DNA of 35,937 bases from contig CADBDE010000012.1 of assembly GCA_902793375.1 (NCBI GenBank), positions 1 through 35,937 on the forward strand, read 5' to 3'. The translations under genes were made by a program, and so were the position numbers. This document shows, piece by piece, positions 5,892 through 21,617 of the stretch. The notes under the pieces were generated by a model. That model saw only the letters and a list, made by a program, of their open reading frames with translations, was not told where the DNA came from and did not search any database. This DNA is from an uncultured Erysipelotrichaceae bacterium. Its GTDB lineage: Bacteria > Bacillota_I > Bacilli_A > RF39 > UBA660. Position 1 is the first letter of the stretch; the number at the start of each line of letters is the position of its first letter.

Positions 5892-6273
5892 TTAATTATT
5901 TTTAGAAATATTTAACAATATTCCAATACTTATCATACTTATTAGTAAACTACTTCCTCCATATGATAGAAAAGGTAACGTTACACCCGTTACTGGAATA
6001 AGACCAATAACAACAGATAAATTCAATATTGCTTGAATAATTATTTGAAATATTAAACCAAATGACAAATATTTTGCAAAATCATCTTTTATGTTAATTG
6101 CAATTTTAAAGCCATAATATAATAAAAGTGCAAACAAAGAAACAACAATTATTACTCCCATTACTCCAAATTCTTCACTAATAATTGAAAAAATAAAATC
6201 TGTTTGTGGTTCTGGTAGATAAAATTGTTTTTGTCTTGATTTTAAAAATCCCATCCCCATAAGTCCACCTGGA
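5892..6273 (-). CDS. ftsW: ftsW/spoVE lipid-II polymerase, 3' half (interrupted)
   Basis: This is the C-terminal third (124 residues) of a SEDS-family glycosyltransferase: GLMGMGFLKSRQKQF, LPEPQTDFIFSIISEEFG, then three membrane segments and TGVTLPFLSYGGSSLL. The gene is cut at the GPGG codons by element 1; its 5' part is at 9657-10368. Joining 10368-9657 to 6265-5892 gives 1,086 bases, an in-frame 361-residue protein of normal FtsW/SpoVE length with no lost or added codon. While the element is present, an alternative ATG at 6320 inside it opens this frame, but such a product would lack most membrane segments and the upstream catalytic region. FtsW works with a class B PBP to polymerise septal peptidoglycan; the split PBP lies in the same cluster. 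Confidence 0.93.
6266..6273. repeat. Element 1 attachment core, left copy
   Basis: CACCTGGA shared with 9657-9664. In the rebuilt site the flanks form the dyad ATAAGTCC-ACCT-GGACCTAT, with one mismatch in the arms. Its centre coincides with that of the attP arms (6285-6293 and 9635-9643), placing the crossover at the CC/GG dinucleotide. Confidence 0.88.
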
Positions 6274-6279
6274 TTTAGT

Positions 6280-7521
6280 TTATAGCGATAAACAAGGATT
6301 TTTAAAATTAAAATAAACATCTATTGTTTTATCACTATGTACTTCTATTTTTTTTATTAATAGTAATAGTAATTTTCTATTAATCTCTACATTCAAATTA
6401 TAATGATTCATAAGTATTTTAATTTTATTTATTATTATTTTTTCTATTTTTTTATAATTATTTGAATGAGAACTACATAGTCTTTGTTTTGAATATTTTT
6501 TATAAGTATTACAAATTAAATAAACATTATTCTTATTTTTTTGAAATGACATTCTTTTTTTACATTCAAAACAAGTAATAAATCCAGTTAATAAATAATT
6601 ATTCTTATTATTTTTCTTAATTACATTCTTTTCTTTAAAGATTTTTTGAACTCTATCAAAATCTTCTTTATCAATTATTACATCGTGTGTATTGTTTACT
6701 ATTATCCATTCATCTCTATTATTGTTTTTTAATTTTCTTATTTTATAATTAATTCTACATCTTCTATTTTGAACTAAATTTCCAGTATATAGTTCATTTT
6801 TTAATATTGTTTTTATAGTTGTTGAACTCCAATATCCTTCTTTAGAATACTTAGAATTTTTTTTATTATTTCTAATTAGTGTTGGAGTTTTAACTTTATT
6901 ATTAAATAAATACTCTTTAATTTTATTTATTGAGTATCCACTTAAGAATAATGAATAAATTTTTCTAACTATTATTGCTTCTTCATAATTTACTACTAAA
7001 TGATTTTTATCATTAACATCTTTACTATATCCAAATGGTGTACATCCTCCAACCCATTTACCCATTTGTTGTTTTATTCTCAAAGCAGCTTTTATTTTTT
7101 TTGAATTATCTTTGGAAAACATATCATTTATTATTGCTTTAAATGGCATATATTCATTAATATTATTTATAGAATCATAATTATCAAGAATAGAAATAAA
7201 TCTTATATTTTTACTTGGAAAAAACATTTCTAAATAGTATCCAGTAATAATATAGTCTCTTCCAAATCTTGATAAATCTTTAACGATTATTAAATCTATT
7301 TTTTTATTATTTATATCATCAATTAATCTAAGAAAACTTGGTCTATTAAAATTAGTTCCAGTATAACCGTCATCTATATAATAATCATAAATTTTATAAT
7401 CATTTTTATTTGCATACTCAGTTAGTATATTTTTTTGATTTTCAACACTTTCACTATTTGTGTTATTTTTATTTTCATCTTCTTTAGATAATCTTATATA
7501 AAGAGCCGCATTATAATTCAT
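6280..7521 (-). CDS. Large serine recombinase of element 1
   Basis: A 413-residue site-specific recombinase. The N-terminal resolvase domain holds the nucleophile Ser13 in YIRLSKEDE, then DDGYTGTNFNRPSF and DLSRFGRDYI. The recombinase domain follows (about 160-270, GGCTPFGYSKD through GYWSSTTIKTILKNELYTGN). A zinc ribbon (CFECKKRM ... CNTYKKYSKQRLCSSH) and the typical IEVHSDKTIDVYF end come after it. It is the TnpX/TndX type of clostridial elements but on the short side. The start (ATG 7521) overlaps the stop of a 31-codon ORF, implying translational coupling. Its stop lies only 7 bp from the att core. It probably inserts and removes element 1 in ftsW. Confidence 0.95.
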   Translation of the reverse strand: MNYNAALYIRLSKEDENKNNTNSESVENQKNILTEYANKNDYKIYDYYIDDGYTGTNFNRPSFLRLIDDINNKKIDLIIVKDLSRFGRDYIITGYYLEMFFPSKNIRFISILDNYDSINNINEYMPFKAIINDMFSKDNSKKIKAALRIKQQMGKWVGGCTPFGYSKDVNDKNHLVVNYEEAIIVRKIYSLFLSGYSINKIKEYLFNNKVKTPTLIRNNKKNSKYSKEGYWSSTTIKTILKNELYTGNLVQNRRCRINYKIRKLKNNNRDEWIIVNNTHDVIIDKEDFDRVQKIFKEKNVIKKNNKNNYLLTGFITCFECKKRMSFQKNKNNVYLICNTYKKYSKQRLCSSHSNNYKKIEKIIINKIKILMNHYNLNVEINRKLLLLLIKKIEVHSDKTIDVYFNFKNPCLSL

Positions 7522-7606
7522 ATACTAAATCCTTATTATTAATATTCTTTATTAACTTATCTAAAGAATCTTTTCCTTCATAATAAAAATTAATAGATTT
7601 ATTCAT
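7511..7606 (-). CDS. 31-residue ORF coupled to the element 1 recombinase
   Basis: A short ORF starting at the ATG at 7606 behind TGGAGGTAT and ending inside the recombinase start region (the stop overlaps ATGAATTATAA). Sequence begins MNKSINFYYEGKD and ends LIKNINNKDLVYEL. No family recognised. The strong ribosome site and overlap suggest it is translated and couples translation to the recombinase; a helper or directionality role is only a guess. A longer upstream reading frame exists but has no ribosome site. Confidence 0.55.
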   Translation of the reverse strand: MNKSINFYYEGKDSLDKLIKNINNKDLVYEL

Positions 7607-7654
7607 AGATACCTCCATGAATAATCTATTAATTAATTTAAAAAAATATACAAA

Positions 7655-7680
7655 AAAAGTGTAATAATAATTACACTTTT
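7655..7680 (-). terminator. Terminator after the element 1 secreted-protein gene
   Basis: A perfect 11-bp stem (AAAAGTGTAAT / ATTACACTTTT) with a 4-nt loop lies just past the stop at 7686. It separates the cargo gene from the recombinase unit. Confidence 0.8.
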
Positions 7681-7685
7681 TTATC

Positions 7686-8489
7686 CTACCAAGTACCAGA
7701 CCAGTATACTTCCGCTTCATTAATTGTATCAAACATATTATATACTGAACTATCATGTACAATTCCAAGAGTTGCGTTAACATCATGATTTAATGCTTGA
7801 CTCAAAGTTAAAGATGAATCAATACCATGAGTATAATCACCAGCAGCAACTTGGCTTGTTACTGTACTATATGGATTTACTTTTTGAATATCATAATAAT
7901 AAGTTACTGTTAATGAACTTAAATTTGGAAGTGGTAACATAAATGTTGCGCTTTCTCCTTTTGTAAATGATTGTGATGTATAATAGAATAAATTAAAATG
8001 CGTACCAGAAGTTGTATAATATTCCAAATTAAAATATGGAGAACCACTAATAGTAACATCACTATAATGTCCAATTCCAATTACATCATATGATCTAACT
8101 GCAGGAAAGTTTAACCAATTTAATTGATTCTTATAACGATACGTATTGTTAACATAAGTTAAATAAGTAGTCATCATTTTATAAGTTGTTTCAACTGTTG
8201 TTGAATCTCTAGTAACTAATGTTTTACTTATATCAGTATCTGCATTTTCATATTCTTCTTTTGTAAGTTCATATGAATCACTACTAATCAAATCAGCTTT
8301 TACTATATTACCATATGAGTCTTTTTCAACATTTTCATAAACATTTACCGTTTTTAAATACTTAGTTGATTCATTTAATATAATTTCTTTTTCTTCATCA
8401 ACATTTTTAGTATTATTATCAGCATTAACATATGTTGGAATAATAACCAATATAGTAATAAAAAGTAATACCATTATTTTCTTTTTCAT
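7686..8489 (-). CDS. Secreted protein of unknown function, element 1 cargo
   Basis: A 267-residue protein not matched to a known family. A clear Sec signal peptide (MKKKIMVLLFITILVIIPTY, then VNADNN) with a likely AxA-like cleavage near residue 23 is followed by a charged region and a Tyr/Thr/Ser-rich, probably beta-rich domain (about 95-267) without cysteines in the mature part. AGGAGGAACT precedes the ATG. It is read alone between the XRE regulator and the recombinase and has its own terminator. Similar secreted proteins are often lantibiotic-like or surface proteins, but nothing here identifies the activity. Confidence 0.8.
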   Translation of the reverse strand: MKKKIMVLLFITILVIIPTYVNADNNTKNVDEEKEIILNESTKYLKTVNVYENVEKDSYGNIVKADLISSDSYELTKEEYENADTDISKTLVTRDSTTVETTYKMMTTYLTYVNNTYRYKNQLNWLNFPAVRSYDVIGIGHYSDVTISGSPYFNLEYYTTSGTHFNLFYYTSQSFTKGESATFMLPLPNLSSLTVTYYYDIQKVNPYSTVTSQVAAGDYTHGIDSSLTLSQALNHDVNATLGIVHDSSVYNMFDTINEAEVYWSGTW

Positions 8490-8579
8490 AAGTTCCTCCT
8501 TTCAAGCAAAATATACAATAAAAAAAAGAAAAAGTATATTGCTTAAAAAGAGAGTATTGAAAATATCAAAATAATAGAA

Positions 8580-9275
8580 TTAATAATTTATATTTAATGC
8601 CATTCTATTATTATTTTCACCCATAAATATTATCATTAGTTGTAAATTTTCCTTATCTATCTTTTTTTTATAATCAATACTTATTGTATAATTATCCAAA
8701 ATTTCTAATATTGATTTATTTGTTTCAATATTAATTGATTCATTATATATTATTTCGTCTTTATTTTTTAATATTAATCTAATAGATTTTATATTATTAT
8801 TAACACTATTATCTACCCCTATTTCACTTATTACTATTTTTGATTCTTTATTATTACTTATAATAAATCCTTTAGAAGATATACTATCATTAGAGTATAA
8901 ACTAGTTATTTTCCAACTATAATAATCTTCAATAAGAAATACAAAAAATACACTTAATAAGAATAATAAAAAGAAAATAGTAAAATATTTAATAAGTTTC
9001 CTTTTAGTCATTTTTGAATAAATATCTATTGCTTCAACCGTGTCTACTTTATTAACTTCTTCACCTATTAGTAATTCTTCTACAGAAACATCTAAGGTTT
9101 TTGCAAGTGAATTTAACAATGTTATATCTGGTGCAACTACACCTTTTTCCCATTTACTTACTGTTTTATCACTAACATCTAAGATATCTCCAAGAGTCTT
9201 TTGAGTATATCCTTTACTCTTTCTTAAATCAGAAATATGTTTTCCCATCTTTATCATGCTAGATCTATCATTCAT
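8580..9275 (-). CDS. Membrane-anchored XRE-family regulator, element 1
   Basis: About 231 residues from the ATG at 9275, which has GGTGAAAAT upstream; an upstream TTG at 9308 lacks a good site. The N-terminal helix-turn-helix is a classic XRE domain: ISDLRKSKGYTQKTLGDIL, VSDKTVSKWEKGVVAPDI, LLNSLAKTLDVSVEELL. One transmembrane helix (LIKYFTIFFLLFLLSVFFVFLI) follows, and about 130 residues would lie outside the cell. That layout fits a one-component sensor that binds DNA inside and senses a signal outside. It neighbours a secreted-protein gene and lies upstream of the recombinase gene, so it may govern cargo or excision; this is inference. Confidence 0.85.
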   Translation of the reverse strand: MNDRSSMIKMGKHISDLRKSKGYTQKTLGDILDVSDKTVSKWEKGVVAPDITLLNSLAKTLDVSVEELLIGEEVNKVDTVEAIDIYSKMTKRKLIKYFTIFFLLFLLSVFFVFLIEDYYSWKITSLYSNDSISSKGFIISNNKESKIVISEIGVDNSVNNNIKSIRLILKNKDEIIYNESINIETNKSILEILDNYTISIDYKKKIDKENLQLMIIFMGENNNRMALNINY

Positions 9276-9364
9276 ATTTTCACCAACTTCATAACTAATA
9301 ATATACAATAATTATCATTAATAGTTAGATTAGTATTCTTATAGTAAACAAAAAAATGTTGTAT

Positions 9365-9529
9365 CTAATCAACATTTTTCTTTTTACAATTTAACCTATC
9401 AATAATATATTCTGTTCTTATATATTGTTTAGGAATTTTATCAATATAAGATACATGTTTTTCCTTAATCTGAGATAATACTAAAAAGCTATTCCTAGCT
9501 TTATTATCTTCATAACTATCTTTTCTCAT
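9365..9529 (-). CDS. 54-residue ORF at the attR end of element 1
   Basis: Starts at ATG 9529 behind AAGGAGACTAAA and ends at a TAG at 9365. A small, charged protein (11 Lys, 5 Arg) beginning MRKDSYEDNKARNSFLV and ending in a Lys-rich tail. No family recognised. It is the first gene inside the element. Small basic proteins at this position are often excisionases or regulators, but no direct motif supports this. Confidence 0.55.
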   Translation of the reverse strand: MRKDSYEDNKARNSFLVLSQIKEKHVSYIDKIPKQYIRTEYIIDRLNCKKKNVD

Positions 9530-9543
9530 TTTAGTCTCCTTTC

Positions 9544-9555
9544 TTGTTATAACAA
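9544..9555. promoter_or_regulatory. Perfect 12-bp palindrome, candidate operator
   Basis: TTGTTATAACAA is a perfect inverted repeat just upstream of the ribosome site of the 54-codon ORF. It is a plausible binding site for the XRE regulator of the same element; no second copy was noticed. Confidence 0.4.
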
Positions 9556-9656
9556 CTATATGATAATAACAAATAATAAATATTTTTTTAGTATCTAAAA
9601 TTGCGAATTATGTATCTTATAAAGCGACTTTACAGTTTATCGCATCATACTTTACT

Positions 9657-9664
9657 CACCTGGA
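9657..9664. repeat. Element 1 attachment core, right copy
   Basis: Second copy of CACCTGGA, at the last intact codons of the ftsW 5' half. The interrupted frame reads GPG, then Glu and a TAG stop inside the element. Confidence 0.88.
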
Positions 9665-10368
9665 CCTATTGCATATAAAGATTGAATTATTTGAAACCCA
9701 GTCCCTAAAGGATCACTCCATGGATTTAAAAAAGAAGTAATTCTATTTACTCTATATGGTGCTATTAGAATTAATCCAATTATTCCAAAAATACCCAACA
9801 AAAAAAGAGAAATAAAAAACTTAATACTAACTCCTGCAATAAAAAGAAGAGAAATAACACTTACTATAATTATCATTCCAGTTCCAAAATCTGGTTGTAA
9901 CATAATAAGTCCAAAAACTAAAAATAAAACTAATAATATGGGAATAACACCTTTTTTTATATCTTTTATATATTTATTTGAATTGCATAAATAATTACTA
10001 GTTAAAATAATTAAGCTTATTTTTGAAAATTCACTTGGTTGTATTCCAAAAGATCCAATTCCAAACCAACTTCTACTTCCGTTTCTTATACTTCCTATAC
10101 CAGGAATCAAAACTAGAATAAGAAGAACTATACTTATTATAAATATAATTTTTGAGTATTTTTTATATAGTCTATAATCAATTTTACTAATTATAAAAAT
10201 TAAAAATAAACCAATTAAAAAAAAGAGAAATTGATGTTTTACATATTTAAATGAATCATTATACTTAAAAGAAGCCCAAATACTAGATGAAGAATAAATC
10301 ATTATAATTCCAAAAACAATCAGTATTAAAGATATTACAAGCAAATAATATCCATTTTTTTTATTCAT
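9657..10368 (-). CDS. ftsW: ftsW/spoVE lipid-II polymerase, 5' half (interrupted)
   Basis: The first 237 codons of the SEDS glycosyltransferase, starting at ATG 10368 behind AGGTGATTTA. It encodes hydrophobic segments starting YYLLVISLILIVFG, then GSRSWFGIGSFGIQPSEFSK and LMLQPDFGTGMI-type SEDS signatures, and ends SLYAIGPG at the att core. In the present state the frame continues one codon (Glu) into the element and stops at 9652. The rest is at 5892-6273. A weak hairpin lies between it and mraY. FtsW polymerises lipid II with its partner PBP; SpoVE is the sporulation paralogue, and the two cannot be told apart here. Confidence 0.93.
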
Positions 10369-10406: not shown

Positions 10407-10426
10407 AAAGAACTAAAAAGTTCTTT
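10407..10426 (-). terminator. Hairpin between mraY and ftsW
   Basis: An 8-bp stem (AAAGAACT / AGTTCTTT) with a 4-nt loop overlaps the mraY stop codon and is followed on the minus strand by seven Ts. It would end or attenuate transcription before ftsW. Confidence 0.6.
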
Positions 10427-11411
10427 ATAACCATACTCCAAAGTATACTCCTGCCATTGTAAGAATTAATCCAACAACCCAGAATAATTTTACTATATCA
10501 GTTTCACTCCATCCTATTTTTTCAAAATGATGATGAAGTGGAGTCATTAAAAATAATTTTTTATGGAATAAAAACATCCATACTACTTGTAATATTACGC
10601 TTAGTGTTTCAACAACAAATACACTTGCAACAACTAATAATGTTATTTCTCTATGTGTTAGAATTGCAATTGCTGCCATAACTGCACCAAGTGCGAGAGA
10701 TCCTGTATCACCCATAAATATCTTTGCCGGATGAGTATTGAATATTAAGAATCCCATTAATCCACCAACAAGAATAAAAGTAAATAGTCCAATCTCTTCA
10801 AAACCAACAGCAATAGATATAAGACCAAAAGCAATAAATGATATAGCTGATAATCCACCTGCTAAACCATCAAGTCCATCTGTTAAGTTAACTGCATTTG
10901 ATGCTCCAATTAGAATAAATAACAAAAATACTCCATAGAACCATCCCATTTCAATATTAATACCTAAAGTAGATGAAACAAGTGATGTTTTTCCTCCATT
11001 TTCCATATATAAATAGAAAAATACAAGTGCTATTATTAATTGTAAAAATAATTTTTGATATGTCGATAAACCTTCATTATTCTTCTTTTTTATACTTAAA
11101 AAGTCATCCAAGAATCCAATAAAAGCATATCCAATAAATACAAATAAAATAATAATTAAATTTGGAGTGAGTTCAAGTTTATTTGTTAAAACCAGAGCAA
11201 TCGTTGCTATAATCGTCGGTAATACAAATATTAAACCACCCATAGTAGGAGTACCTTCTTTTTTCTTATGAGTATCTCCAACATATATACTAATTCTTTG
11301 ACCTATTTTTTTTCTTTTTAAAAATGGAATTAGAACAAGTCCTAATACTATTGCTGATAAAAATCCTATCATAATAGTAAATACTGACTTCGTTAATAAT
11401 AATATTCCCAT
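10425..11411 (-). CDS. mraY: Phospho-N-acetylmuramoyl-pentapeptide transferase
   Basis: A complete 328-residue polytopic membrane enzyme that transfers phospho-MurNAc-pentapeptide from UDP to undecaprenyl phosphate, making lipid I. All MraY landmarks are present: THKKKEGTPTMGGL near the N-terminus, the Asp pair D102-D103 in GFLDDFLSIKKKNNEGLS, NLTDGLDGLAGG (about 175-186), FMGDTGSLALG (about 233) and PLHHHFEKIGWSE (about 291). The GTG/ATG region has an AGGTGAATAAGATATG start context. It is the only intact gene of the cluster here, between the split PBP and split ftsW, and is left untouched by both elements. murD, usually found between mraY and ftsW, is absent. Confidence 0.97.
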   Translation of the reverse strand: MGILLLTKSVFTIMIGFLSAIVLGLVLIPFLKRKKIGQRISIYVGDTHKKKEGTPTMGGLIFVLPTIIATIALVLTNKLELTPNLIIILFVFIGYAFIGFLDDFLSIKKKNNEGLSTYQKLFLQLIIALVFFYLYMENGGKTSLVSSTLGINIEMGWFYGVFLLFILIGASNAVNLTDGLDGLAGGLSAISFIAFGLISIAVGFEEIGLFTFILVGGLMGFLIFNTHPAKIFMGDTGSLALGAVMAAIAILTHREITLLVVASVFVVETLSVILQVVWMFLFHKKLFLMTPLHHHFEKIGWSETDIVKLFWVVGLILTMAGVYFGVWL

Positions 11412-11523: not shown

Positions 11524-12390
11524 TTATCCTAAAAGAACTCGTATTTTACTTGTAATATCTATTTTTTCTTTTGGAGATGGTGATTGTTCTATTATATAAT
11601 CTCCATTTCCAGAAACTTCAAGTTCGACTGGATATATTAATTTTGTAGCTTCACTTACTTTTAATCCAATTAAATTAGGGACTTCATAATATTTTATATC
11701 ATTCCATATATATTTTTCTTCTATTCCACCTTCTTGTTTAGGAATAGATAATGCATCAATTATATCAAGAAGTATTCTTCTAGCAATTGGAGCAGTTGTA
11801 TAACTTGATAAAAGTGCTGTATTTTTTGGATTATCAATTGCAAGATATAATACAGCTTTTGGATCATTAGACGGAACTACAGCCATAAAGCTCATAATAT
11901 AGTTATTAACTAAATATTTTCCATCTTCTACCTTTTGAGCTGTTCCTGTTTTTCCTCCAACACGATAATCTTTAATAAATGCATATCTTCCTCCACCAAG
12001 GGCTACTACACTTTCAAGAGCATATTTCATAATATCACTTGTTTCTTTTGTAATTGTCTTTCTTATAAATGTTTTATCAAATTCTTTAATAACACTATTT
12101 GTAGTTGGTTCTTGAATACTTTTTACAATATATGGTTTATATAGATTACCTCCATTAACTACTGCACTAACTGCTCTAACTTGTTGAATTGGAGTTACAC
12201 TTACACCTTGCCCAAAAGCAGTTGTAGCAAGTTCCAAATCTTTTACTTTATCAAGTGAAAAAAGTATTCCATTACTTTCCCCATTTAAATCAATTCCTGT
12301 TTTTTCTCCAAAGCCAAACAAATCAATATAGTTAAATAGCCTTTCTTTTCCTAAAAGCATACCAAGTTTTACAAACCCTGGATTACAGGA
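11524..12390 (-). CDS. pbpB: PASTA-domain class B PBP (PBP2/SpoVD type), 3' half (interrupted)
   Basis: The C-terminal half of a septal or cortex transpeptidase. Joined to 20570-21617 it forms a 634-residue protein. This part carries the KTG motif in VGGKTGTAQK (rebuilt residues about 493-495) and ends in one PASTA domain, starting YYEVPNLIGLKVSEATKLI (about 582-634). PASTA domains occur in Bacillus SpoVD and streptococcal PBP2x and bind peptidoglycan or stabilise the enzyme. Restored codons across the junction read QNSCNPGFVKLGMLLG. An ATG at 12360 could start a fragment, but it would lack the SxxK serine and membrane anchor and so could not be a working transpeptidase. Confidence 0.94.
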   Translation of the reverse strand, partial: SCNPGFVKLGMLLGKERLFNYIDLFGFGEKTGIDLNGESNGILFSLDKVKDLELATTAFGQGVSVTPIQQVRAVSAVVNGGNLYKPYIVKSIQEPTTNSVIKEFDKTFIRKTITKETSDIMKYALESVVALGGGRYAFIKDYRVGGKTGTAQKVEDGKYLVNNYIMSFMAVVPSNDPKAVLYLAIDNPKNTALLSSYTTAPIARRILLDIIDALSIPKQEGGIEEKYIWNDIKYYEVPNLIGLKVSEATKLIYPVELEVSGNGDYIIEQSPSPKEKIDITSKIRVLLG

Positions 12391-13958
12391 ATTTTATCTA
12401 GAGATACTTTATTATTTATATCAATAATCATATCATCATCTTCATAATTAAATACAATCCTTAATCTAATATTATTTCTATTATTATTAATCTTACTTAC
12501 TATTATTTTATTTACAAAAATATTAAAATAATCTTTAATATTATTTTCAACTATAAGTAATCTTTTTATTTCTTTATCTATTTTATTTAGATTAATACAA
12601 TTATTTATTTTATTATTACTAATTATTTCTAATTCTTTTTTTATTTTATTATTCTTTTCTTTATATTCACTTTCGTTAATTATTTTATTAAGTAATAAAT
12701 CAAGTAATTTTTCTTTAATAGTATCAAGTTGTTTTATTTTTTCTTCTAAATTATTAGACATCAATTCAACTTTATTAATAATTACTTTATAATCATTGAT
12801 AATCTCTTCTTTTAAGTTCTTATATTTTTTAATTTTATTTTTAATAATTTTATTAAATATAACATTTAAATCTTTTTCAAATAATCTAGGAGTTATACAT
12901 CCTTTTAGTCCATGACGCAAATAATTATTACATTGCCAAACTGGATTATTCTTCCTTTTTCCACTAGCAGATCTAATAAAAGGAATATTATGTTCATAAC
13001 ATATTATTTTTGAAGTATACATTCTATTTTCAAATATTGATTTATTTTTCTTACTATTTTTTTCTAAAACTTCATTTGCTTTTTTCCATAGTTTTTCAGA
13101 AACAATTGCTGGAATAAAACCTTTATTATCTTTATATATAATCCATTCTTTTTTATCTTTATATATTCTTTTATGTGTTTTATAATCTTCTACTTCACTT
13201 AAGTTTGCTGTATAAAAACCTTTATACCTTGGATTCTTAATCATTTTTTTTAAAGAAGTATCAGAAAATACTTTTCCTTTTCTTGTAAAAATATTTCTCT
13301 TTGCTAATACTTCTCCAATTCTTTTTAAGCCATAATTTTCACTTGAATACATTTTAAAAATCATTTTAACTACTTTTGCTTCATCTTCAATAATTGTAAG
13401 CTTTGAATTATGTTTTAGATAGCCATATAATCCTCCACCACCTACTTTTCCATCTTTAATACTTCTTTTAATTCCAAATTTAACTCTTTCTGATAGTTTT
13501 CTTACTTCATCTTGTGCCATTGATGCCATAAGAGTTAATCTAAATTCACTATCTTTATAAATAGTATTAATATTATCAGTAATAAAGAAAACAATTACTC
13601 CATAACTTAATAATAACTGTGTATACTTAATACTATCTATTGTATTTCTAGCAAATCTTGATACTTCTTTTGTAAGAATTAAATCTATTTTTCCATTTTT
13701 TGCATCTTCTATCATTTTTAAAAATTGTTCTCTTTTTCTTACTTCAGTACCACTTAGTCCCTCATCAACATAACTATTAACATGTTTCCATTTTTTTACT
13801 CCTTTTATAAAATCATTAAAATAATTTATTTGATTTTCTAAAGAATTAACTTGTTCATCTTTATCAGTTGATACTCTTCCATAATCAACTACTCTTAAAT
13901 TCATATCATATATTGTTTTTCCAAGTAATAAATCATTTCTTGCTTTAATAATATCCAT
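12369..13958 (-). CDS. Large serine recombinase of element 2
   Basis: About 529 residues from the ATG at 13958; a GTG at 13967 is an alternative. The resolvase domain has the nucleophile serine in DYGRVSTDKDEQ, then YVDEGLSGTEVRKREQF and LTKEVSRFARNTIDS. A recombinase domain (GGGGLYGYLK through LKKMIKNPRYKGFYTANL), a short zinc-ribbon-like region (CYEHNIPFIR ... CNNYLRHGLKGC) and a long coiled coil (about 380-480) follow. It is a different subfamily from the element 1 enzyme. Its reading frame runs through the att core and ends at a TAA supplied by the host PBP gene (ending IPVIQGL). In the excised circle the same frame would end differently (IPVILSFVKRY), so the C-terminus depends on integration. 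Confidence 0.95.
   Translation of the reverse strand: MDIIKARNDLLLGKTIYDMNLRVVDYGRVSTDKDEQVNSLENQINYFNDFIKGVKKWKHVNSYVDEGLSGTEVRKREQFLKMIEDAKNGKIDLILTKEVSRFARNTIDSIKYTQLLLSYGVIVFFITDNINTIYKDSEFRLTLMASMAQDEVRKLSERVKFGIKRSIKDGKVGGGGLYGYLKHNSKLTIIEDEAKVVKMIFKMYSSENYGLKRIGEVLAKRNIFTRKGKVFSDTSLKKMIKNPRYKGFYTANLSEVEDYKTHKRIYKDKKEWIIYKDNKGFIPAIVSEKLWKKANEVLEKNSKKNKSIFENRMYTSKIICYEHNIPFIRSASGKRKNNPVWQCNNYLRHGLKGCITPRLFEKDLNVIFNKIIKNKIKKYKNLKEEIINDYKVIINKVELMSNNLEEKIKQLDTIKEKLLDLLLNKIINESEYKEKNNKIKKELEIISNNKINNCINLNKIDKEIKRLLIVENNIKDYFNIFVNKIIVSKINNNRNNIRLRIVFNYEDDDMIIDINNKVSLDKIPVIQGL
12381..12390. repeat. Element 2 attachment core, left copy
   Basis: GATTACAGGA shared with 20570-20579. Read on the minus strand it holds TCC TGT AAT, the codons of the PBP SxN active-site motif. 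Confidence 0.9.
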
Positions 13959-13959
13959 T

Positions 13960-14085
13960 TTATTCACCTATTAATTTAGATAAGGTTTTTTCCATTTCAT
14001 TATATATTTCATAATCTATTATTTGATTATCAAATAAATACTTATTATAGTATTTTTTTAACATAATTATTTCTTTTTTATTCAT
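13960..14085 (-). CDS. 41-residue SHOCT-like ORF preceding the element 2 recombinase
   Basis: Starts at ATG 14085 behind AAGGTGATTTA and stops one base before the recombinase ATG, so it is almost certainly co-translated. The pattern MLKKYYNKYLFDNQIIDYE followed by IYNEMEKTLSKL resembles the short SHOCT helix-loop-helix proteins often found just upstream of serine recombinases in Firmicutes elements. The function of those is not established; a role in oligomerisation or control of the recombinase is possible. Confidence 0.6.
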   Translation of the reverse strand: MNKKEIIMLKKYYNKYLFDNQIIDYEIYNEMEKTLSKLIGE

Positions 14086-14123
14086 TAAATCACCTTATAT
14101 AAGTTATTATTAAAGTAAAAAAA

Positions 14124-14142
14124 ATAGAACTTATAGTTCTAT
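14124..14142 (-). terminator. Terminator after the BspA-type gene
   Basis: A perfect 8-bp stem (ATAGAACT / AGTTCTAT) with a 3-nt loop, followed on the minus strand by seven Ts. It isolates the cargo operon from the recombinase unit. Confidence 0.8.
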
Positions 14143-14152
14143 CTTTTATTTA

Positions 14153-17100
14153 TTAACTTTTTAAAGTAAATGTTAATGCTGTTGGTTTTCCACTTGATGA
14201 ATTATATTTATTAACATCTGTTTGGTTCTTACCATATGCTGTAGTAACTGAAGTACATCCAAAGAACATTTGTGTTGTACTTGAAACTCTACTTGCATTA
14301 AAGTAACTTAAATCTAATGATGTTAGTTTATTACAATTGTAGAACATATAACTCATATTAGTTACATTGTTTGTATTAAATGAACTAAAACTCAAATTAG
14401 TTAAATTACTACAATTATAGAACATATAAGCCATATTAGTTACATTACTTGTATTAAAGCTACTTAAATCTACACTTTGTAAACTCATACAATTATTAAA
14501 TAAGTATGACATGTTTGTTACTCTTGAAGTATTCCATGTATTAAGTCCAATAATATTTTTTAATCCTGTTGCTCCAGAGAACAAACTACCAATTTCTCTT
14601 GTATTTGATAAATTCCATCCAGTTACATCTATAGTTTCTAGAGAAGATCCTACTCCCCAATTGCTTAACCAACTTGAGAATGTTGAAGGAAGTGTCCAGT
14701 TTTTTACAGATAATGTTTTTAATGAAGAAGTTCCATTTATTACACTAGACATATAACTACTCATAGATGACATAATTGATAGATTCCATCCATCTAATAC
14801 TAGATTTGTTAATCCACTACATCCATAGAACATATAAGAATAATAATATACTTTATTTGTATTAAAATGACTTAAATTTAAACTTGCCAAACTTCTACAA
14901 TTGTAGAACATTCTTTCAAAAGATGTTGCATTTGCTGTATTAAAATTGCTAATATTTAGATTTGATAAATTTGTACAGTTATAAAACATATATGCAAAGC
15001 TTGTTACTTTAGCTGTATTGAAATTACTTAAATTCAAACTTGTTAATCCACTACATCCATAAAACATATATGATATTGAAGTTACATTAGCTGTATTAAA
15101 ATTACTTAAATTCAAACTTGTTAATCCACTACATCCATAAAACATCGAAGACATATTTGTTGCTTTAGATGTATCAAAATTACTTAAATTTAGATTTGTA
15201 AGTGAACTACAATTATAAAACATTGAGTCAAATCCTGTTACTTTACTTGTGTTAAAACTACTTATATTTAAATTTGCTAATTTACTACAACCACTAAACA
15301 TTGAAGACATATATGTAACATTAGTTGTTACAAAATTGCTCAAATCTAAGCTTGTTAGATTACTACATCCATAAAACATTCCAGACATACTAGTTACTTT
15401 ACTTGTATCAAAGTTACTTAAATTTATTGAAGTTAATCCTGACATATAACCAAACATATATGACATGCTTGTTAGATTTGTAGTTACAAAATTACTTATA
15501 TTTAAATTATTTAGTTTTGTACAATAATGGAACATATATGACATATTTGTTACTCTACTTGTATCAAATCCTGATAGATTTAAATTAGTTAGATTAGTAC
15601 AATTTGCAAACATATTTGACATATTTGTTACTTTACTTGTGTTAAAACTTGATAAATCAAGAGAAGTTAACCCAGAGCATCCATAGAACATATAACTCAT
15701 GTCAGTAATATTTGTGGTATTAATTTGAGCTAAATTAATATTTGTTAATTTACTACAATTGTAAAATAAATTTGATAAACTAGTTAATCTACTAAAATCT
15801 AATCCACCAAAATCTATTGTAGTAAGATTTGAACATCCCGAGAATAATCCATTAATAGATGTTACTTTACTTGTATTTAAATCACTTAAATCTACATTTT
15901 TTAAATTAGTATCATTAGAGAACAAATATGAAATATTTGTAACATTACTTGTATTAAGACTTGTCAAATCAATTGATTCAAAAGTATTACCTCCAAACAT
16001 TCCACTCATATTTGTTACTTTACTTGTATCAAGATTAGCAAAATTCAAACTCATATTACGACAACCATATAACATATATGACATATTTGTTACCTTGCTT
16101 GTATTAAAATCTGAATAATTAATAGGTAATTTATAACAATTATAGAACATATATGACATGTTTGTAACATTACTTGTATCAAAATTTGAAAAATCAACAT
16201 TTATAAGTTCATTACAATTATAGAACAAATAAGACATATCTGTTACTCTTGATGTATCCCATGTATCAAGTCCTACAATATTTTTTAACAAGTTAGCGCC
16301 ATAGAATGTTTGATATAAACTTGTTACTGTACTTAAATCCCAACCAGTTACATCTAAAGTTTCAACATAGTATAAATAAATGTTACTTCCATAAAATGGT
16401 CTTGAACCAAATGCCCAGTTTTTCATAGAAATTGTTTTTAAATTATTAGTGTAATAAAACATAGAACTATAATTGCTTAATTTTGACATATCCCAATTAT
16501 CTAAATTAAGAGATGTTAATCCTCTACAATAATAGAACATATAATTTGTATTTGTTAATCTAGAAGTATCCCATGTATCAAGTCCTATAATTTCCTTTAG
16601 ACCTGATCCATTATAGAATAAATAAGCTAAGCTAGTATTACCACTTAAATCCCAGTCAGAAACATCAATTGTTTCAACATTTGTTGGAATACTAAAATTA
16701 GATATTAAATATGTAAACTCATTTGGAATTTTCCAATCTTTAGCAGATATTGATTTTAAACTTGAAGCTCCACTAAAAAAACCATTTGCAAAAGTTGTAG
16801 ATGGAAGTCTTTTAAAATTCCAATTATCTAATACTACACTTCTAAGTGAAGTACATCCCTGAAAAACATTTTTCATATTTGATACATTAGATGTATCAAA
16901 ATCACTTAAATCAATTGTTTCTAAAGAACTACATCCACTAAATAACGAACTAATATCTCTAACATTAACTGTATTCCACGTATCAAATCCAACTACATCT
17001 TTTAGTTTTTTTGCATCTGCAAATAACCCTTCTAATTTTTTAGTTTCTGATAAGTTAACATCAGTTACATCTATTGTTTCAATTGATTGACTCTGGAAAA

Positions 17101-18178
17101 ATGAGAATGGTACTTCATTTCCAAAAGTAGCACTTCTTATTGATACTGTTTTTAAACTTGGAGTATTTACAAATACATTTTTACCATTTTGACCAATTTT
17201 TGAAAAATTAAATTCATCTAATTTAATTGTTCTAAGTGAAGAAGCACCATTAAACATTCCATCAATGTTCATAAGTCTTCCTGTAGCAAGTTTTGATAAA
17301 TTTACTTCAGTTACTCCAGTTGCATTTAAAAACATATTTGACATATTTTCAACACTAATTGTGTCAAAACTACTAAAATCTATACTTGTTGCTTTACTAT
17401 TAGCAAACATATTACGCATTGATACAATTGGTTTTTGATTTATTGTTGAACATAAACCTGATTCAACTGGATCTGTTGAGTTTTTATCTGTTAATACAAC
17501 TCCCCAACCATCAGCATTTACATCAACCCAATTAGTACCATCAAATTCTTGTTTATATCTATAAGTATACTGTCCATCAATATATTCTGCACCAACAGTT
17601 AATTCCCCATCAAACGAACAAGTATTTAATTCAAAATATTCTCCATTTGGAAGAATTCTTCCTTCTCTTGTAGTTTCACAATCTTCCGTATATCTAAATA
17701 CTTTTTTTCTTCCGTCAACTACTGCAGTTACTATGATATCGTCTTTTTCAATATCTGATTCTAAATCATCCTCATCAAAATCTTCAACATTAATAGGATC
17801 TTTTACTCCTATACCTGCTTCATCACGACTCATCCAGTAATAGTCATAGCCTTTTCCATTTCCTTTAAAGTTTACAACTACATAAGCAGGATCAAATTCA
17901 CCATAAGGAGATTTAGCAACATCTCCATTTTCTACTCTTATACATGAACTAGGAACATAATATGTAGTTTCCTCATCATGAAATTTGTATTCTTCACTAT
18001 TAATCTTTGTTGTTACTCCATCAACAATTTGTTTTGCTGTATCAATATAAGCTGTTTTTCTAGAATCATTAATTAGTTTTGTTACGCTTGGAATAGCAAT
18101 AATAATTAAGATTCCAAGTATTATGATAACAGCTAATAGTTCAATTAATGTGAATGCTTTTTTATTCATCTTTCTCAT
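14153..18178 (-). CDS. Giant prepilin-anchored BspA-type leucine-rich repeat surface protein
   Basis: 1,341 residues. The N-terminus has the prepilin signal AFTLIELLAVIIILGILIII and the shared pseudopilin body (SPYGEFDPAY, YYWMSRDEAG; to about residue 160). A linker with a GTNWVDVNADGWGVV segment follows. From about residue 255 to 1310 it is a long tandem array of roughly 24-residue BspA/DUF285-type repeats, whose consensus reads like LTSLDLSSFNTSKVTNMSNM with FYGCS after it. These repeats form a solenoid and occur in adhesins and immunogenic surface proteins of gut and oral bacteria. Some units are longer and degenerate (NWDLS.., WKIP..). It is the main cargo of element 2, 11 bp after the glycine-rich gene. 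Adhesion is inferred from the family. Confidence 0.92.
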   Translation of the reverse strand: MRKMNKKAFTLIELLAVIIILGILIIIAIPSVTKLINDSRKTAYIDTAKQIVDGVTTKINSEEYKFHDEETTYYVPSSCIRVENGDVAKSPYGEFDPAYVVVNFKGNGKGYDYYWMSRDEAGIGVKDPINVEDFDEDDLESDIEKDDIIVTAVVDGRKKVFRYTEDCETTREGRILPNGEYFELNTCSFDGELTVGAEYIDGQYTYRYKQEFDGTNWVDVNADGWGVVLTDKNSTDPVESGLCSTINQKPIVSMRNMFANSKATSIDFSSFDTISVENMSNMFLNATGVTEVNLSKLATGRLMNIDGMFNGASSLRTIKLDEFNFSKIGQNGKNVFVNTPSLKTVSIRSATFGNEVPFSFFQSQSIETIDVTDVNLSETKKLEGLFADAKKLKDVVGFDTWNTVNVRDISSLFSGCSSLETIDLSDFDTSNVSNMKNVFQGCTSLRSVVLDNWNFKRLPSTTFANGFFSGASSLKSISAKDWKIPNEFTYLISNFSIPTNVETIDVSDWDLSGNTSLAYLFYNGSGLKEIIGLDTWDTSRLTNTNYMFYYCRGLTSLNLDNWDMSKLSNYSSMFYYTNNLKTISMKNWAFGSRPFYGSNIYLYYVETLDVTGWDLSTVTSLYQTFYGANLLKNIVGLDTWDTSRVTDMSYLFYNCNELINVDFSNFDTSNVTNMSYMFYNCYKLPINYSDFNTSKVTNMSYMLYGCRNMSLNFANLDTSKVTNMSGMFGGNTFESIDLTSLNTSNVTNISYLFSNDTNLKNVDLSDLNTSKVTSINGLFSGCSNLTTIDFGGLDFSRLTSLSNLFYNCSKLTNINLAQINTTNITDMSYMFYGCSGLTSLDLSSFNTSKVTNMSNMFANCTNLTNLNLSGFDTSRVTNMSYMFHYCTKLNNLNISNFVTTNLTSMSYMFGYMSGLTSINLSNFDTSKVTSMSGMFYGCSNLTSLDLSNFVTTNVTYMSSMFSGCSKLANLNISSFNTSKVTGFDSMFYNCSSLTNLNLSNFDTSKATNMSSMFYGCSGLTSLNLSNFNTANVTSISYMFYGCSGLTSLNLSNFNTAKVTSFAYMFYNCTNLSNLNISNFNTANATSFERMFYNCRSLASLNLSHFNTNKVYYYSYMFYGCSGLTNLVLDGWNLSIMSSMSSYMSSVINGTSSLKTLSVKNWTLPSTFSSWLSNWGVGSSLETIDVTGWNLSNTREIGSLFSGATGLKNIIGLNTWNTSRVTNMSYLFNNCMSLQSVDLSSFNTSNVTNMAYMFYNCSNLTNLSFSSFNTNNVTNMSYMFYNCNKLTSLDLSYFNASRVSSTTQMFFGCTSVTTAYGKNQTDVNKYNSSSGKPTALTFTLKS

Positions 18179-18189
18179 AATTATTACCC

Positions 18190-19590
18190 CTATTCATCTA
18201 TATGTGTTATTCTTATAAAACCATTTCCAGTATGACCAATTTCTATTCCACCATCAGGTGAATCAAATGGTTGATTTCCACCTATTGTTTCAGCATTTTG
18301 CAAAAAATAAGAACTATCTAATTGGCACTGTGAAGTACAGTATGATGCATTACTTGAGGTATAGATATAACCAGATCCGCCACCGCCACCTCTGTCGTCA
18401 TCTCCACCTCCATCAGGATAAGTTCCAGATCCACCATACCAGCCTCCGCCACCGGCTCCACCGTAGCCATTAGCATGATATACTCCATTTCCTCCAAAAC
18501 CAAATCCTGCATATATATTTGGTTTATAATCGTCTACATCAGTTGGTTGTGTTGATACGACATATGAAGAACCTCCACTATTTCCACTAGCAGTTCCTCC
18601 GTATCCACCAGATCCATAAGATTGAGTAACTGTTTCTCCAAAAGTTCCTCCACCAGAACCACCAGGCTTACCAGTTGCTCCATCAGATCCTCCACCACCT
18701 GCTACAATTACTCTAGCATATGGACTTGTACTATTTATTCTTATATCGGAAGCTCCACCACCACCATAGTATTTATTACGGCTACCTCCTCCATTAAATC
18801 CACCTTGACAAAGCGTTTGACCACATCCATTAGATCCATGGCCTGCTGCTCCACCAACGTAAATATATAATGTATCTCCATCTTTTAATTTAACTACACC
18901 ATGTGAATATCCACCTTTTCCACTATAATTTTGATTAGTTCTATATCCACCTTCTGCACCCCAAATTTCTAAATTATAACTACCTGCACAAGTAATCTTT
19001 AAAGATTGTACATTACCCGTATAATTAAACTCAAGAGGAAGTGCACTACATGCTCCTCTTTTTTCACCACCAGAACAATCAGCATTAAAAACATATGTAT
19101 AATCTCTTGTACCAACAGTTCTATCAGTTCTAATATCAGAAGCTTTTAAGCCACTAACAATATCACTTTCATCTAAATCATCATAACTAGTTGGTACTTT
19201 AACTCCAAATCCTTCAGTATCTCTACTTACCCAGTAATACTCAAATCCTTTACCATTTTCAGAATAATTAACTACTACATAAGCTGGATCAAAATCTCCA
19301 TAAGGAGAACTAGTTGAATTTTCACTTTTTATACATGTCGTTGGGATAAAATAAGACATGTTAGTATCATAAAATGATATTTTACCTTCATTTACTATAT
19401 TTCTAGCAGCAGCCATTATATTTTTTGCTGTTGCTACATAAGAGTCACTTCTTGAACTATTCAAATATTTTGATACTGCTGGAATAGCTATAATTAATAA
19501 AATACCAAGTATTATTATAGCAGCAAGTAGTTCAATAATAGTAAATCCCCTTTTTCTTTTTTTCTTTTTTTTATTAAGTAATTTAAACAT
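18190..19590 (-). CDS. Prepilin-anchored glycine-rich surface protein
   Basis: 466 residues. A very basic start (KKKKKRKR) precedes GFTIIELLAAIIILGILLII, the prepilin signal, and the same pseudopilin body as its neighbour (SPYGDFDPAY, YYWVSRDTEG). Residues about 195-466 form a glycine-rich domain (WGAEGGYRTNQNY, YIYVGGAAGHGS, ARVIVAGGGGSDGATG, GGGGWYGGSG, then YIYTSSNASYC) matching the Gly_rich family also found in the ALK/LTK ectodomain. Several cysteines could form disulfides. It lies in an operon with the BspA-type gene. GC is locally high because of glycine codons. Surface display is inferred from the anchor; the ligand is unknown. Confidence 0.88.
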   Translation of the reverse strand: MFKLLNKKKKKRKRGFTIIELLAAIIILGILLIIAIPAVSKYLNSSRSDSYVATAKNIMAAARNIVNEGKISFYDTNMSYFIPTTCIKSENSTSSPYGDFDPAYVVVNYSENGKGFEYYWVSRDTEGFGVKVPTSYDDLDESDIVSGLKASDIRTDRTVGTRDYTYVFNADCSGGEKRGACSALPLEFNYTGNVQSLKITCAGSYNLEIWGAEGGYRTNQNYSGKGGYSHGVVKLKDGDTLYIYVGGAAGHGSNGCGQTLCQGGFNGGGSRNKYYGGGGASDIRINSTSPYARVIVAGGGGSDGATGKPGGSGGGTFGETVTQSYGSGGYGGTASGNSGGSSYVVSTQPTDVDDYKPNIYAGFGFGGNGVYHANGYGGAGGGGWYGGSGTYPDGGGDDDRGGGGGSGYIYTSSNASYCTSQCQLDSSYFLQNAETIGGNQPFDSPDGGIEIGHTGNGFIRITHIDE

Positions 19591-19649
19591 AACGAGACCA
19601 CCATCCCTATTATCTTAATTCTATCATACATAATATAAAAAACAAATAA

Positions 19650-19675
19650 AAAAGAATTTTTTTCTAAATTCTTTT
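19650..19675 (-). terminator. Hairpin between the 266-residue gene and the glycine-rich gene
   Basis: A 10-bp stem (AAAAGAATTT / AAATTCTTTT) with a 6-nt loop and T-rich flank just past the stop at 19677. It would end or attenuate the leader gene before the prepilin cargo. Confidence 0.65.
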
Positions 19676-19676
19676 T

Positions 19677-20477
19677 TTAATTAATATATGTTCTTATAAA
19701 ATTATAATTATTATCAAATTCCCAAATTAAAGTTTCAAATTTTGATTCATTTCCAAAAAAATCTTCAACATCTATTACTTCATTAGAATTAACTGTTTTA
19801 AATGTATCTTTCTCTTCTCCTTCTTTTCTATTTTCCATCAATCCAATATATTGATAAACATAATAATGATCATTTTCATATTTATAATTATAAGTTTTGT
19901 AATAAAGTATACTATCTCCATCATTTTTACATTCATTAGATAAATATATTCTCTTTATTCTTGTATCTAATTTATATACACTTGGGCATGTATTAAACTC
20001 TATTAAACTATTTTCATCATATTTAGGTTCATTTCCAAATAACTTCTCATATTCTTTTTCAAAAGTTCTTGAAGAAGTAGATTGCATATTTTTACTAAAA
20101 TCTCCTAAAACTGGATCAGTCTTATACTTTTCAGCTAGATTATCTGGAGTTACTTTTTCAAATACTGGTTGTATATTAATAACATATTGTAAAGCAAACA
20201 GGTTTTTTTGATTATTTGATAATTTATTAATTCCTTTTGCAAAATCATATGCTAATCCTTTATATCCAAAATCATTATACATACCAGTTTTAACAAAGTT
20301 ATTTAATTTTTCAATTTTAACAACATCTCTTACAACATTTTTAAATTTATCTTCTTCAACATTTTTTGGTCTTGTAAGTAAAAATACTATTACACCTACA
20401 ATAATTGCTAAAATAACACATAATATTATAATTATTAATAACTTTTTTGATTTATTTTTTTTAGTTTCTTCATCCAT
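19677..20477 (-). CDS. Single-pass membrane protein of unknown function, first gene of element 2 cargo
   Basis: 266 residues beginning at ATG 20477 behind CGGAGGGCAT. A short charged, Lys-rich cytoplasmic tail is followed by one transmembrane helix (about 14-34, LLIIIILCVILAIIVGVIVFLL) and a roughly 230-residue extracellular, Lys/Asp/Tyr-rich domain with two cysteines. No family was recognised. The strong promoter just upstream (20510-20538) lies inside the element, so the cargo is expressed independently of the host gene. It may help assemble or anchor the prepilin-like proteins, but this rests on position only. Confidence 0.75.
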   Translation of the reverse strand: MDEETKKNKSKKLLIIIILCVILAIIVGVIVFLLTRPKNVEEDKFKNVVRDVVKIEKLNNFVKTGMYNDFGYKGLAYDFAKGINKLSNNQKNLFALQYVINIQPVFEKVTPDNLAEKYKTDPVLGDFSKNMQSTSSRTFEKEYEKLFGNEPKYDENSLIEFNTCPSVYKLDTRIKRIYLSNECKNDGDSILYYKTYNYKYENDHYYVYQYIGLMENRKEGEEKDTFKTVNSNEVIDVEDFFGNESKFETLIWEFDNNYNFIRTYIN

Positions 20478-20509
20478 ATTTAATATGCCCTCCGTATTAT
20501 TACAATTGC

Positions 20510-20538
20510 ATTATACACTAATATAATTAATCTTTCAA
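20510..20538 (-). promoter_or_regulatory. Sigma-A-type promoter of the element 2 cargo
   Basis: On the minus strand TTGAAA (20533-20538) and TATAAT (20510-20515) are separated by exactly 17 bp. It lies about 30 bp inside the attR core and reads into the 266-residue gene. Confidence 0.8.
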
Positions 20539-20569
20539 TTATTAATTAGTATCTCTTTACAAAACTCAA

Positions 20570-20579
20570 GATTACAGGA
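20570..20579. repeat. Element 2 attachment core, right copy
   Basis: Second copy of GATTACAGGA, inside the SCN codons of the PBP 5' half. It sits within an inverted repeat, CAAAACTC (20560-20567) and GAGTTTTG (20578-20585). Confidence 0.9.
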
Positions 20580-21617
20580 GTTTTGTAATACTTGCAAAAA
20601 GGTTTGCATTCCATGACCTGATGGTTTCCAACATCCAATTCTTGTTCCACTTACTATAACATGACCTGAATCATAAAATGTATCATTAAACAAATCTACT
20701 ACTTTTTCATTAACCGCAGCAGAAGTAGTTATTATTTTAAAAGTACTTCCTGGTTCAAATGAAGCCCATATAGGAAGATTTCTATTGATTGTTTCAACAC
20801 TTGCTTTTTTATAATTATTTGAATCATATGTTGGTCTTGAACTCATTCCTAATATTTCTCCAGTATTAGGATCCATTACAATTGCAAGAGCCATATCAGG
20901 AGAAAACATTGATACAATATTATTAAGTTCTCTTTCAAGAGATTGTTGAATATTATAATCAATTGTTAAAGTAATATTCATACCCTGTTGTGGAGCAACA
21001 TAAATATCAGATAATTTTAAGCTATTTCCTTTAGCATCACTAAAATATTTAATAGCTCCATCTACACCTGTTAAATAATTATCATATTCTAACTCTATTC
21101 CAGATAGTCCTTGATTATCAATACCAACATACCCTAAAACATGAGATAACATTTCATTATTTGGATAGTATCTTTTTGATTCTTTTACTAAATATACTCC
21201 TTTATACTTTAATTTATCTATTTTATCTGCTATTTCAAATGGTAATTGTCTACCTTCTGGATGTACTCTTTCAATGGATGTTTCTTTATACACATGTTTA
21301 TCCATTTTATCTTTTGATATTCCAAGAATATTGGCAAGATTTGTTGACACGTCTTCCTTATTTTCAAGTTGAGATGGAATAAGAACTAAACTTGTTGTTG
21401 TAATATTATTTGCAAGAACAACTCCATTTCTATCAAGAATTAAGCCTCGATCTGCAGCAAGAGGAAGATTTCTACTCCACAAATCATTAGCTTTTTCATT
21501 TAACATTTTATAATCAAATAATTGAATATAAATCACTTTTAAAATTATTATTATTAAGAATAAAATAAGTATAAGAAACAATAATCTAATTTTTTCATCT
21601 ATTTTTTTTGTAAACAT
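20570..21617 (-). CDS. pbpB: PASTA-domain class B PBP (PBP2/SpoVD type), 5' half (interrupted)
   Basis: The first 349 codons of the transpeptidase, from ATG 21617 with GGTGATAT upstream. A membrane anchor (about 11-33) is followed by the PBP dimerisation region (LPLAADRGLILDRNGVVLA, GYVGIDNQGLSGIELEYDNY) and the start of the catalytic domain with Ser291 in the SxxK motif (PGSTFKIITT). The frame runs into the element after the SxN motif (QNSCN) and stops at 20535, adding LEFCKEILINN. It lacks KTG and PASTA, so the fragment should be inactive. The remainder is at 11524-12390. The partner is the FtsW/SpoVE polymerase, also split. Confidence 0.94.

Follow-up and report, generated by a model that had tools for sequence, protein, structure and literature searches.

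What does an insertion placed exactly in an active-site codon of a transpeptidase gene mean for the gene, and can it be taken out again? The question is raised by a window of 35,937 nucleotides (the whole stretch of DNA analysed here; positions 1-35,937, forward strand, of contig CADBDE010000012.1) from assembly GCA_902793375.1 of an uncultured Erysipelotrichaceae bacterium (GTDB lineage Bacteria; Bacillota_I; Bacilli_A; RF39; UBA660), in which an insertion of 8,189 bp, hereafter element 2, splits a penicillin-binding protein (PBP) gene at the Asn codon of its SxN motif. The genome holding the window is designated G000, and those of relatives bear other G numbers. We consider it probable that element 2 is a serine-integrase mobile element residing in the mother-cell gene spoVD, which would be restored during sporulation by excision of the kind known for skin. 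The evidence comes from the exactness of the split, the identity of the gene, the interruption of its partner gene spoVE by a second element and the recurrence of such insertions in the family.

Element 2 in spoVD

The core GATTACAGGA is found in the window in two copies only (12381-12390 and 20570-20579), which was reproduced in none of 100 shuffles of the window. When one copy is dropped, the minus-strand join of 21617..20570 and 12380..11524 yields a gapless and open gene of 1,905 bases and 634 codons, reading QNSCNPGFVKLG across the seam and containing STFK at 291 and SCN at 347-349, with the crossover placed on the AA of the SxN Asn codon. The paired core, the in-frame join and the scarless removal at this very codon were all proposed in the initial annotation and are borne out; six species of the window's genus provide the corresponding empty sites, having uninterrupted spoVD with no indel at the join. 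The features involved, all on the minus strand, are as follows.

20570-21617, minus strand: 5′ half of spoVD, codons 1-349, with SxxK (STFK) at 291 and the core at its end, on the Asn codon of SxN
20570-20579, minus strand: core TCCTGTAATC at the junction with the spoVD 5′ half
19677-20477, minus strand: cargo, membrane-anchored protein of 266 aa without Pfam family
18190-19590, minus strand: cargo, glycine-rich (ALK/LTK GRD-like) protein with prepilin-type N-terminus
14153-18178, minus strand: cargo, BspA-type leucine-rich repeat protein of 1341 aa with prepilin-type N-terminus
13963-14088 (approximate), minus strand: small open reading frame (ORF) encoding 41 aa (MNKKEIIMLKKYYNKYLFDNQ...), a candidate recombination directionality factor (RDF) immediately upstream of the recombinase of element 2
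12369-13967, minus strand: large serine recombinase of element 2, Resolvase and Recombinase domains, VD350 clade
12381-12390, minus strand: core TCCTGTAATC at the junction with the spoVD 3′ half, overlapped by the 3′ end of the recombinase gene
11524-12380, minus strand: 3′ half of spoVD, with KTG and PASTA

The joined product scores 695.2 bits against the NCBIfam model TIGR02214 (spoVD equivalog; cut-off 688), compared to 360 and 307 bits for the halves. Intact class B PBPs and two intact SEDS proteins are encoded elsewhere in the genome, and since they are present the split gene can be assigned as the sporulation paralogue, that is sporulation-specific SpoVD and not the sole transpeptidase of the cell. 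The sporulation context (SpoVD identity and vegetative paralogues) was absent from the initial annotation, which had suggested seeking an intact paralogous PBP; such proteins were found, only of the vegetative type, the FtsI-type PBP on contig C8 being 32% identical to the split SpoVD. Its formula that integration switches the gene off and excision switches it on is plausible, and is probably not to be read as a switch of a vegetative PBP, since the gene is spoVD and the neighbouring spoVE is split too.

Two peculiarities of element 2 deserve mention. Its recombinase ORF ends at 12369, with the stop codon lying in host spoVD sequence past the crossover, and a like overlap is seen in other elements; because of this position of the stop codon (12369-12390), the C-terminal residues of the recombinase would change upon excision. 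The cargo between 14153 and 19590 combines prepilin-type N-termini with a BspA-type leucine-rich repeat array and a glycine-rich domain, a surface-display pair unusual for a mobile element.

Element 1 in spoVE and a third element in an amidase gene

SpoVD and SpoVE form the PBP/SEDS pair of spore cortex synthesis, and expression of both genes in the mother cell is known from B. subtilis. Both members of the pair are interrupted in this one genome. Element 1 (3,391 bp, window 6266-9664), equipped with its own serine recombinase, splits at GPGG an FtsW/SpoVE-type gene whose best model is SpoVE (NCBIfam TIGR02615; the N-part scores 278 bits with it and 234 with FtsW). Its core TCCAGGTG occurs at 9657 and 6266, and the join of 361 codons reads IGPGGLMGMGF and is gapless in comparison with intact relatives. 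The intact mraY gene remains between the split genes, in the dcw-type order spoVD-mraY-spoVE.

10425-11411, minus strand: mraY, intact
9657-10368 (ORF part 9652-10368), minus strand: 5′ half of spoVE (SEDS partner of SpoVD), ending in core TCCAGGTG at GPGG
7686-9308, minus strand: cargo of element 1, a secreted protein (7686-8489) and a helix-turn-helix regulator with membrane tail (8580-9308)
7512-7607 (approximate), minus strand: small ORF encoding 31 aa (MNKSINFYYEGKDSLDKLI...), a candidate RDF immediately upstream of the recombinase of element 1
6280-7521, minus strand: serine recombinase of element 1, VE240 clade
5892-6273 (ORF part 5892-6320), minus strand: 3′ half of spoVE, starting in core TCCAGGTG (6266-6273)

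A third element of about 11 kb (G000 contig C2, 78427-90968) divides a LysM N-acetylmuramoyl-L-alanine amidase gene after the SNHxNAGG motif and carries genes that, by the reading of their translations, encode a recombinase, a reverse transcriptase and type I restriction-modification proteins. Of the genome's four serine recombinases, three thus reside in split genes of this kind. The fourth, on contig C4, lies at a contig end and adjoins relaxase-type genes; no split gene is shown there.

Recombinases, att sites and candidate directionality factor

Both recombinases of the window match PF00239 and PF07508 above cut-off and belong, accordingly, to the large serine recombinases. The att sites were aligned by hand on the central dinucleotide, some cores being only 2-6 bp long. 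In element 2, the attP arms are perfect inverted repeats of 9 bp, AGTATCTCT/AGAGATACT, placed with exact symmetry around AA at an offset of 15 bases, a layout which as read from the alignment has the geometry of a large-serine-recombinase site; in element 1 the inverted arms GTTTATCGC/GCGATAAAC are symmetric about GG with the same offset of 15 bases. Several relatives per clade have related attP arms, at about 15 bases from the crossover in most of them, and long arms at the 15-base offset are missing in G004, G010 and G001. The recombinase gene adjoins the 3′ host fragment in the same orientation in spoVD, spoVE and spoIVA elements.

In the recombinase tree each of five target sites corresponds to one monophyletic clade (VD300, VD350, VD410, VE240 and IVA122), and this clustering of clade with target was matched by only 0-1 of 500 label shuffles. 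Because of this one-to-one correspondence, the integrase appears to determine the target codon. A small ORF, conserved within the clade, stands immediately upstream of the recombinase in 22 of the 23 elements examined. Since the order attL-rdf-int-attR is that of SP-beta (PMC6957869), this ORF is our candidate for the directionality factor.

Upstream of the small ORF, at a distance of 19-31 bases, a CATANNNT box (sigma-E/K-like -10) was detected in 10 of 13 spoIVA and amidase elements, with 0.6 expected; it resembles CATATNAT, which precedes spoIVA and sigK in the same genomes.

Neither element of the window can be taken for a temperate prophage, as their larger ORFs contain no phage structural genes detectable by Pfam or NCBIfam, and scans of viral contigs with both recombinases gave no close relative. 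The best match in a phage collection, MT837325 (44%), was considered as an excised circle and set aside, being an unannotated, G+C-rich record without terminal repeat.

Recurrence of split sporulation genes in the family

The comparison took in about 60 family members that possess a spoVD orthologue, the close named matches being animal-gut metagenome assemblies labelled uncultured Bacilli or Erysipelotrichaceae. Among them spoVD is intact in about 36 and split in about 24, the flanking recombinase being confirmed, here as for the other split genes, in a closely read subset. G012, at first sight split, was counted as intact because its two contigs overlap by exactly 127 bp over the intact site and reflect an assembly break. 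The splits fall near three places only: the codons for Lys in SxxK and for Asn in SxN, and TPxQ. The SxN Asn codon is struck in several genera, in agreement with the earlier proposal that a conserved catalytic motif is the target. A single spoVD gene holds two elements in G060 and apparently three in G066 and in G033.

Similar regularity is observed for the other targets: seven species of the window's genus have spoVE split at GPGG, and in eight genomes its cut is at PVTG; spoIVA is split at residue ~122 in six genomes, and the amidase gene at one place in ten genomes by sequence and in more by match pattern. The elements measure about 3-19 kb, and one genome may contain several of them. Identical element ends in G008, G050 and G055, representing three genera, and near-identical VD410 recombinases across genera (G008, G006 and G033) point therefore to recent horizontal movement of the elements. 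Large serine recombinases number up to 20 per genome of ~1.2-1.5 Mb (G060, G008 and others), exceeding the known split sites, and for this reason more interrupted genes are likely to exist in the family.

One element at the second spoVE site, PVTG (G001:C14:4000-16500), is of another make, encoding ParA/ParB, SSB, a relaxase, a sortase and a large surface protein, which is reminiscent of integrative and conjugative or integrative and mobilizable elements (ICE/IME); no recombinase of the rec1/rec2 type was found in this stretch of 12 kb.

The positions of the cuts bear on the idea that the two halves of SpoVD are a trans-complementing enzyme making excision unnecessary. Openness and conservation of both halves would suit it; with SxxK parted from KTG inside the active site, other genomes cut at other active-site codons, and the 3′ half deprived of a membrane anchor, we regard it as extremely unlikely.

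Among the genes tested, the elements are limited to those associated with sporulation (spoVD, spoVE, spoIVA and the co-occurring amidase gene). The forespore protease gene gpr is split in none of the 38 family genomes holding it, sigK is a single intact ORF in about 42 genomes, and every vegetative FtsI or FtsW/RodA homologue listed, with catalytic motifs shared by the split proteins, is of full length. Fisher tests of spoVD versus the controls give p about 1e-6 and 4e-7, phylogenetic dependence being ignored. This distribution speaks against a PBP that is reversibly phase-variable among growing cells, independently of sporulation: a serine integrase with its RDF can in principle run both ways, and contigs often break at the junctions, as mixed states in the sample would have it, yet all recurrent targets found are sporulation-associated, and none of the vegetative paralogues sharing these motifs is hit. 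The contig breaks are partly due to the same element being present in several species (G008, G050 and G055), and since this fits as well, they were not used as proof of mixed states. Phase variation appears very unlikely.

Selection on split genes and the case for static inactivation

A more serious competitor supposes that ordinary mobile elements docked in a gene dispensable for growth, with spoVD and spoVE inactivated and sporulation lost or degraded. It draws on the failure to see excision or a rebuilt junction in the window's own assembly, and on conjugation and partition genes in the spoVE-331 element of G001, which give some residents an ICE/IME-like character. Several observations are at odds with it. 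For the N-half of spoVD compared between G008 and G009, both split, the rates of nonsynonymous (dN) and synonymous (dS) substitution are 0.015 and 0.46, respectively (dN/dS 0.033), and for spoVE among six split species dN/dS is 0.02-0.17, with dS saturated in several pairs. The 3′ part of spoVD in G008 and G009 is the one exception to low dN/dS, being near-identical and having too few changes to judge selection. As judged from substitution patterns, split alleles keep open frames and are under purifying selection, for both halves and in several split species; moreover, congeners sharing a split spoVE are far diverged at silent sites.

Genomes with split genes also retain spoIVA, sigma-K-type factors and mostly gpr. 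Relatives that do not sporulate drop whole genes and not split copies: most family members lacking SpoIVA also lack SpoVD and SpoVE orthologues (the exceptions are the incomplete G007, and G047), and the seven members lacking all three proteins possess fewer such recombinases (mean 1.3 vs 4.4, p = 0.005). Taken with these data, static inactivation is an unlikely explanation, though a better one than phase variation.

Proposed excision in the mother cell

As we infer them, excision, its mother-cell timing, sporulation of the host and the identity of the directionality factor would combine in the following way. During growth SpoVD would not be needed, and element 2 would be harmless in the chromosome. 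During sporulation attL and attR would be recombined through the central AA by the integrase together with a directionality factor, probably encoded by the small ORF ahead of the integrase gene, so that element 2 would leave as a circle and a scarless spoVD would remain in the mother cell, which dies. The forespore would retain the unrearranged chromosome, and owing to this the element would be inherited. Element 1 would follow the same course in the partner gene spoVE. Mother-cell excision is preferred over a vegetative switch because SpoVD serves the mother cell and because spoVE is split too.

Certain points count against skin-like excision. Neither an excised junction nor a circle was seen, and the own assembly of the host contains no intact attB. 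A recognised RDF domain was sought in the small ORF and none was found. The sigma-E-like box is present in 0 of 17 elements of the VD and VE clades, both window elements included, so that promoter support for mother-cell control is limited to the sister elements and does not extend to the two elements of the window. Sporulation of the host organism is predicted from genes only, its genome containing spoIVA, sigma-E- and sigma-K-type factors and gpr. Finally, a low dN/dS obtained with saturated dS is of limited information for insertions that could be recent.

A broader interpretation, which we offer as possible and rather doubtful, is that mother-cell-only genes serve as a general docking platform for a radiation of serine integrases, each adapted to one invariant catalytic codon of an essential protein of spore construction, for which the terminal mother cell would offer an off state free of cost. 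Since one genome can have several genes, or one gene several codons, split in this way, spore-wall synthesis would then depend on a number of separate excisions in each mother cell, and these would work as a timer of sporulation or as a coincidence check.

Relation to known intervening elements

Programmed excision has so far been known from a handful of sporulation genes in Bacillus and Clostridium, the established elements being skin in sigK, SP-beta in spsM, vfbin, vrin, gin in gerE, yin in yabG and the kamA prophages (PMC4191935, PMC5595907, PMC10747680, PMC6957869). The principle is therefore known; what is new is the choice of targets, the use of fixed catalytic codons to each of which an integrase clade corresponds, how many elements a genome contains and the family-wide extent. 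The open-access literature searched named neither spoVD nor spoVE nor spoIVA as a target. Across this uncultured family of the gut, excision from sporulation genes appears to be common and to concern four structural or cell-wall genes, at about seven fixed places. If so, mother-cell genes would be a preferred niche for mobile DNA, the family would offer a ready-made collection of integrases of known att sites and codon specificity, and broken- or missing-looking sporulation genes in metagenome-based predictions of spore formers would find an explanation.

The closest parallel is skin (SpoIVCA/Skr; B. subtilis, C. difficile), where a serine recombinase element likewise splits a mother-cell gene and where excision, inferred here, is precise, scarless and compatible with inheritance via the spore chromosome (PMC4191935, PMC5025042, PMC6957869). 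Unlike in the skin system, sigK is intact here and the targets are the structural or cell-wall genes spoVD, spoVE, spoIVA and that of the amidase, while the elements are small, devoid of recognised phage structural genes and several to a genome, with up to three in one gene. SP-beta in spsM (SprA/SprB) shares the attL-rdf-int-attR order, the small ORF before the integrase and a mother-cell-expressed target; it is an active prophage, whereas the elements described here are of about 3-19 kb and those of the window are not phage-like. In the cyanobacterial heterocyst system, XisF of the fdxN element is a serine recombinase that also frees a gene needed only in a terminal cell; it is the nearest NCBIfam match of the element 1 recombinase, far below cut-off, and represents another developmental system and not an orthologue. 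The remaining known set, namely gin, vfbin (spoVFB), vrin (spoVR), yin (yabG) and the kamA prophages, resides in mother-cell genes as do the present elements, although the papers searched describe no codon-by-codon integrase radiation for it. Within this set gin (gerE, B. cereus) is of non-phage nature and bears a restriction system (PMC5595907), like the amidase element of G000.

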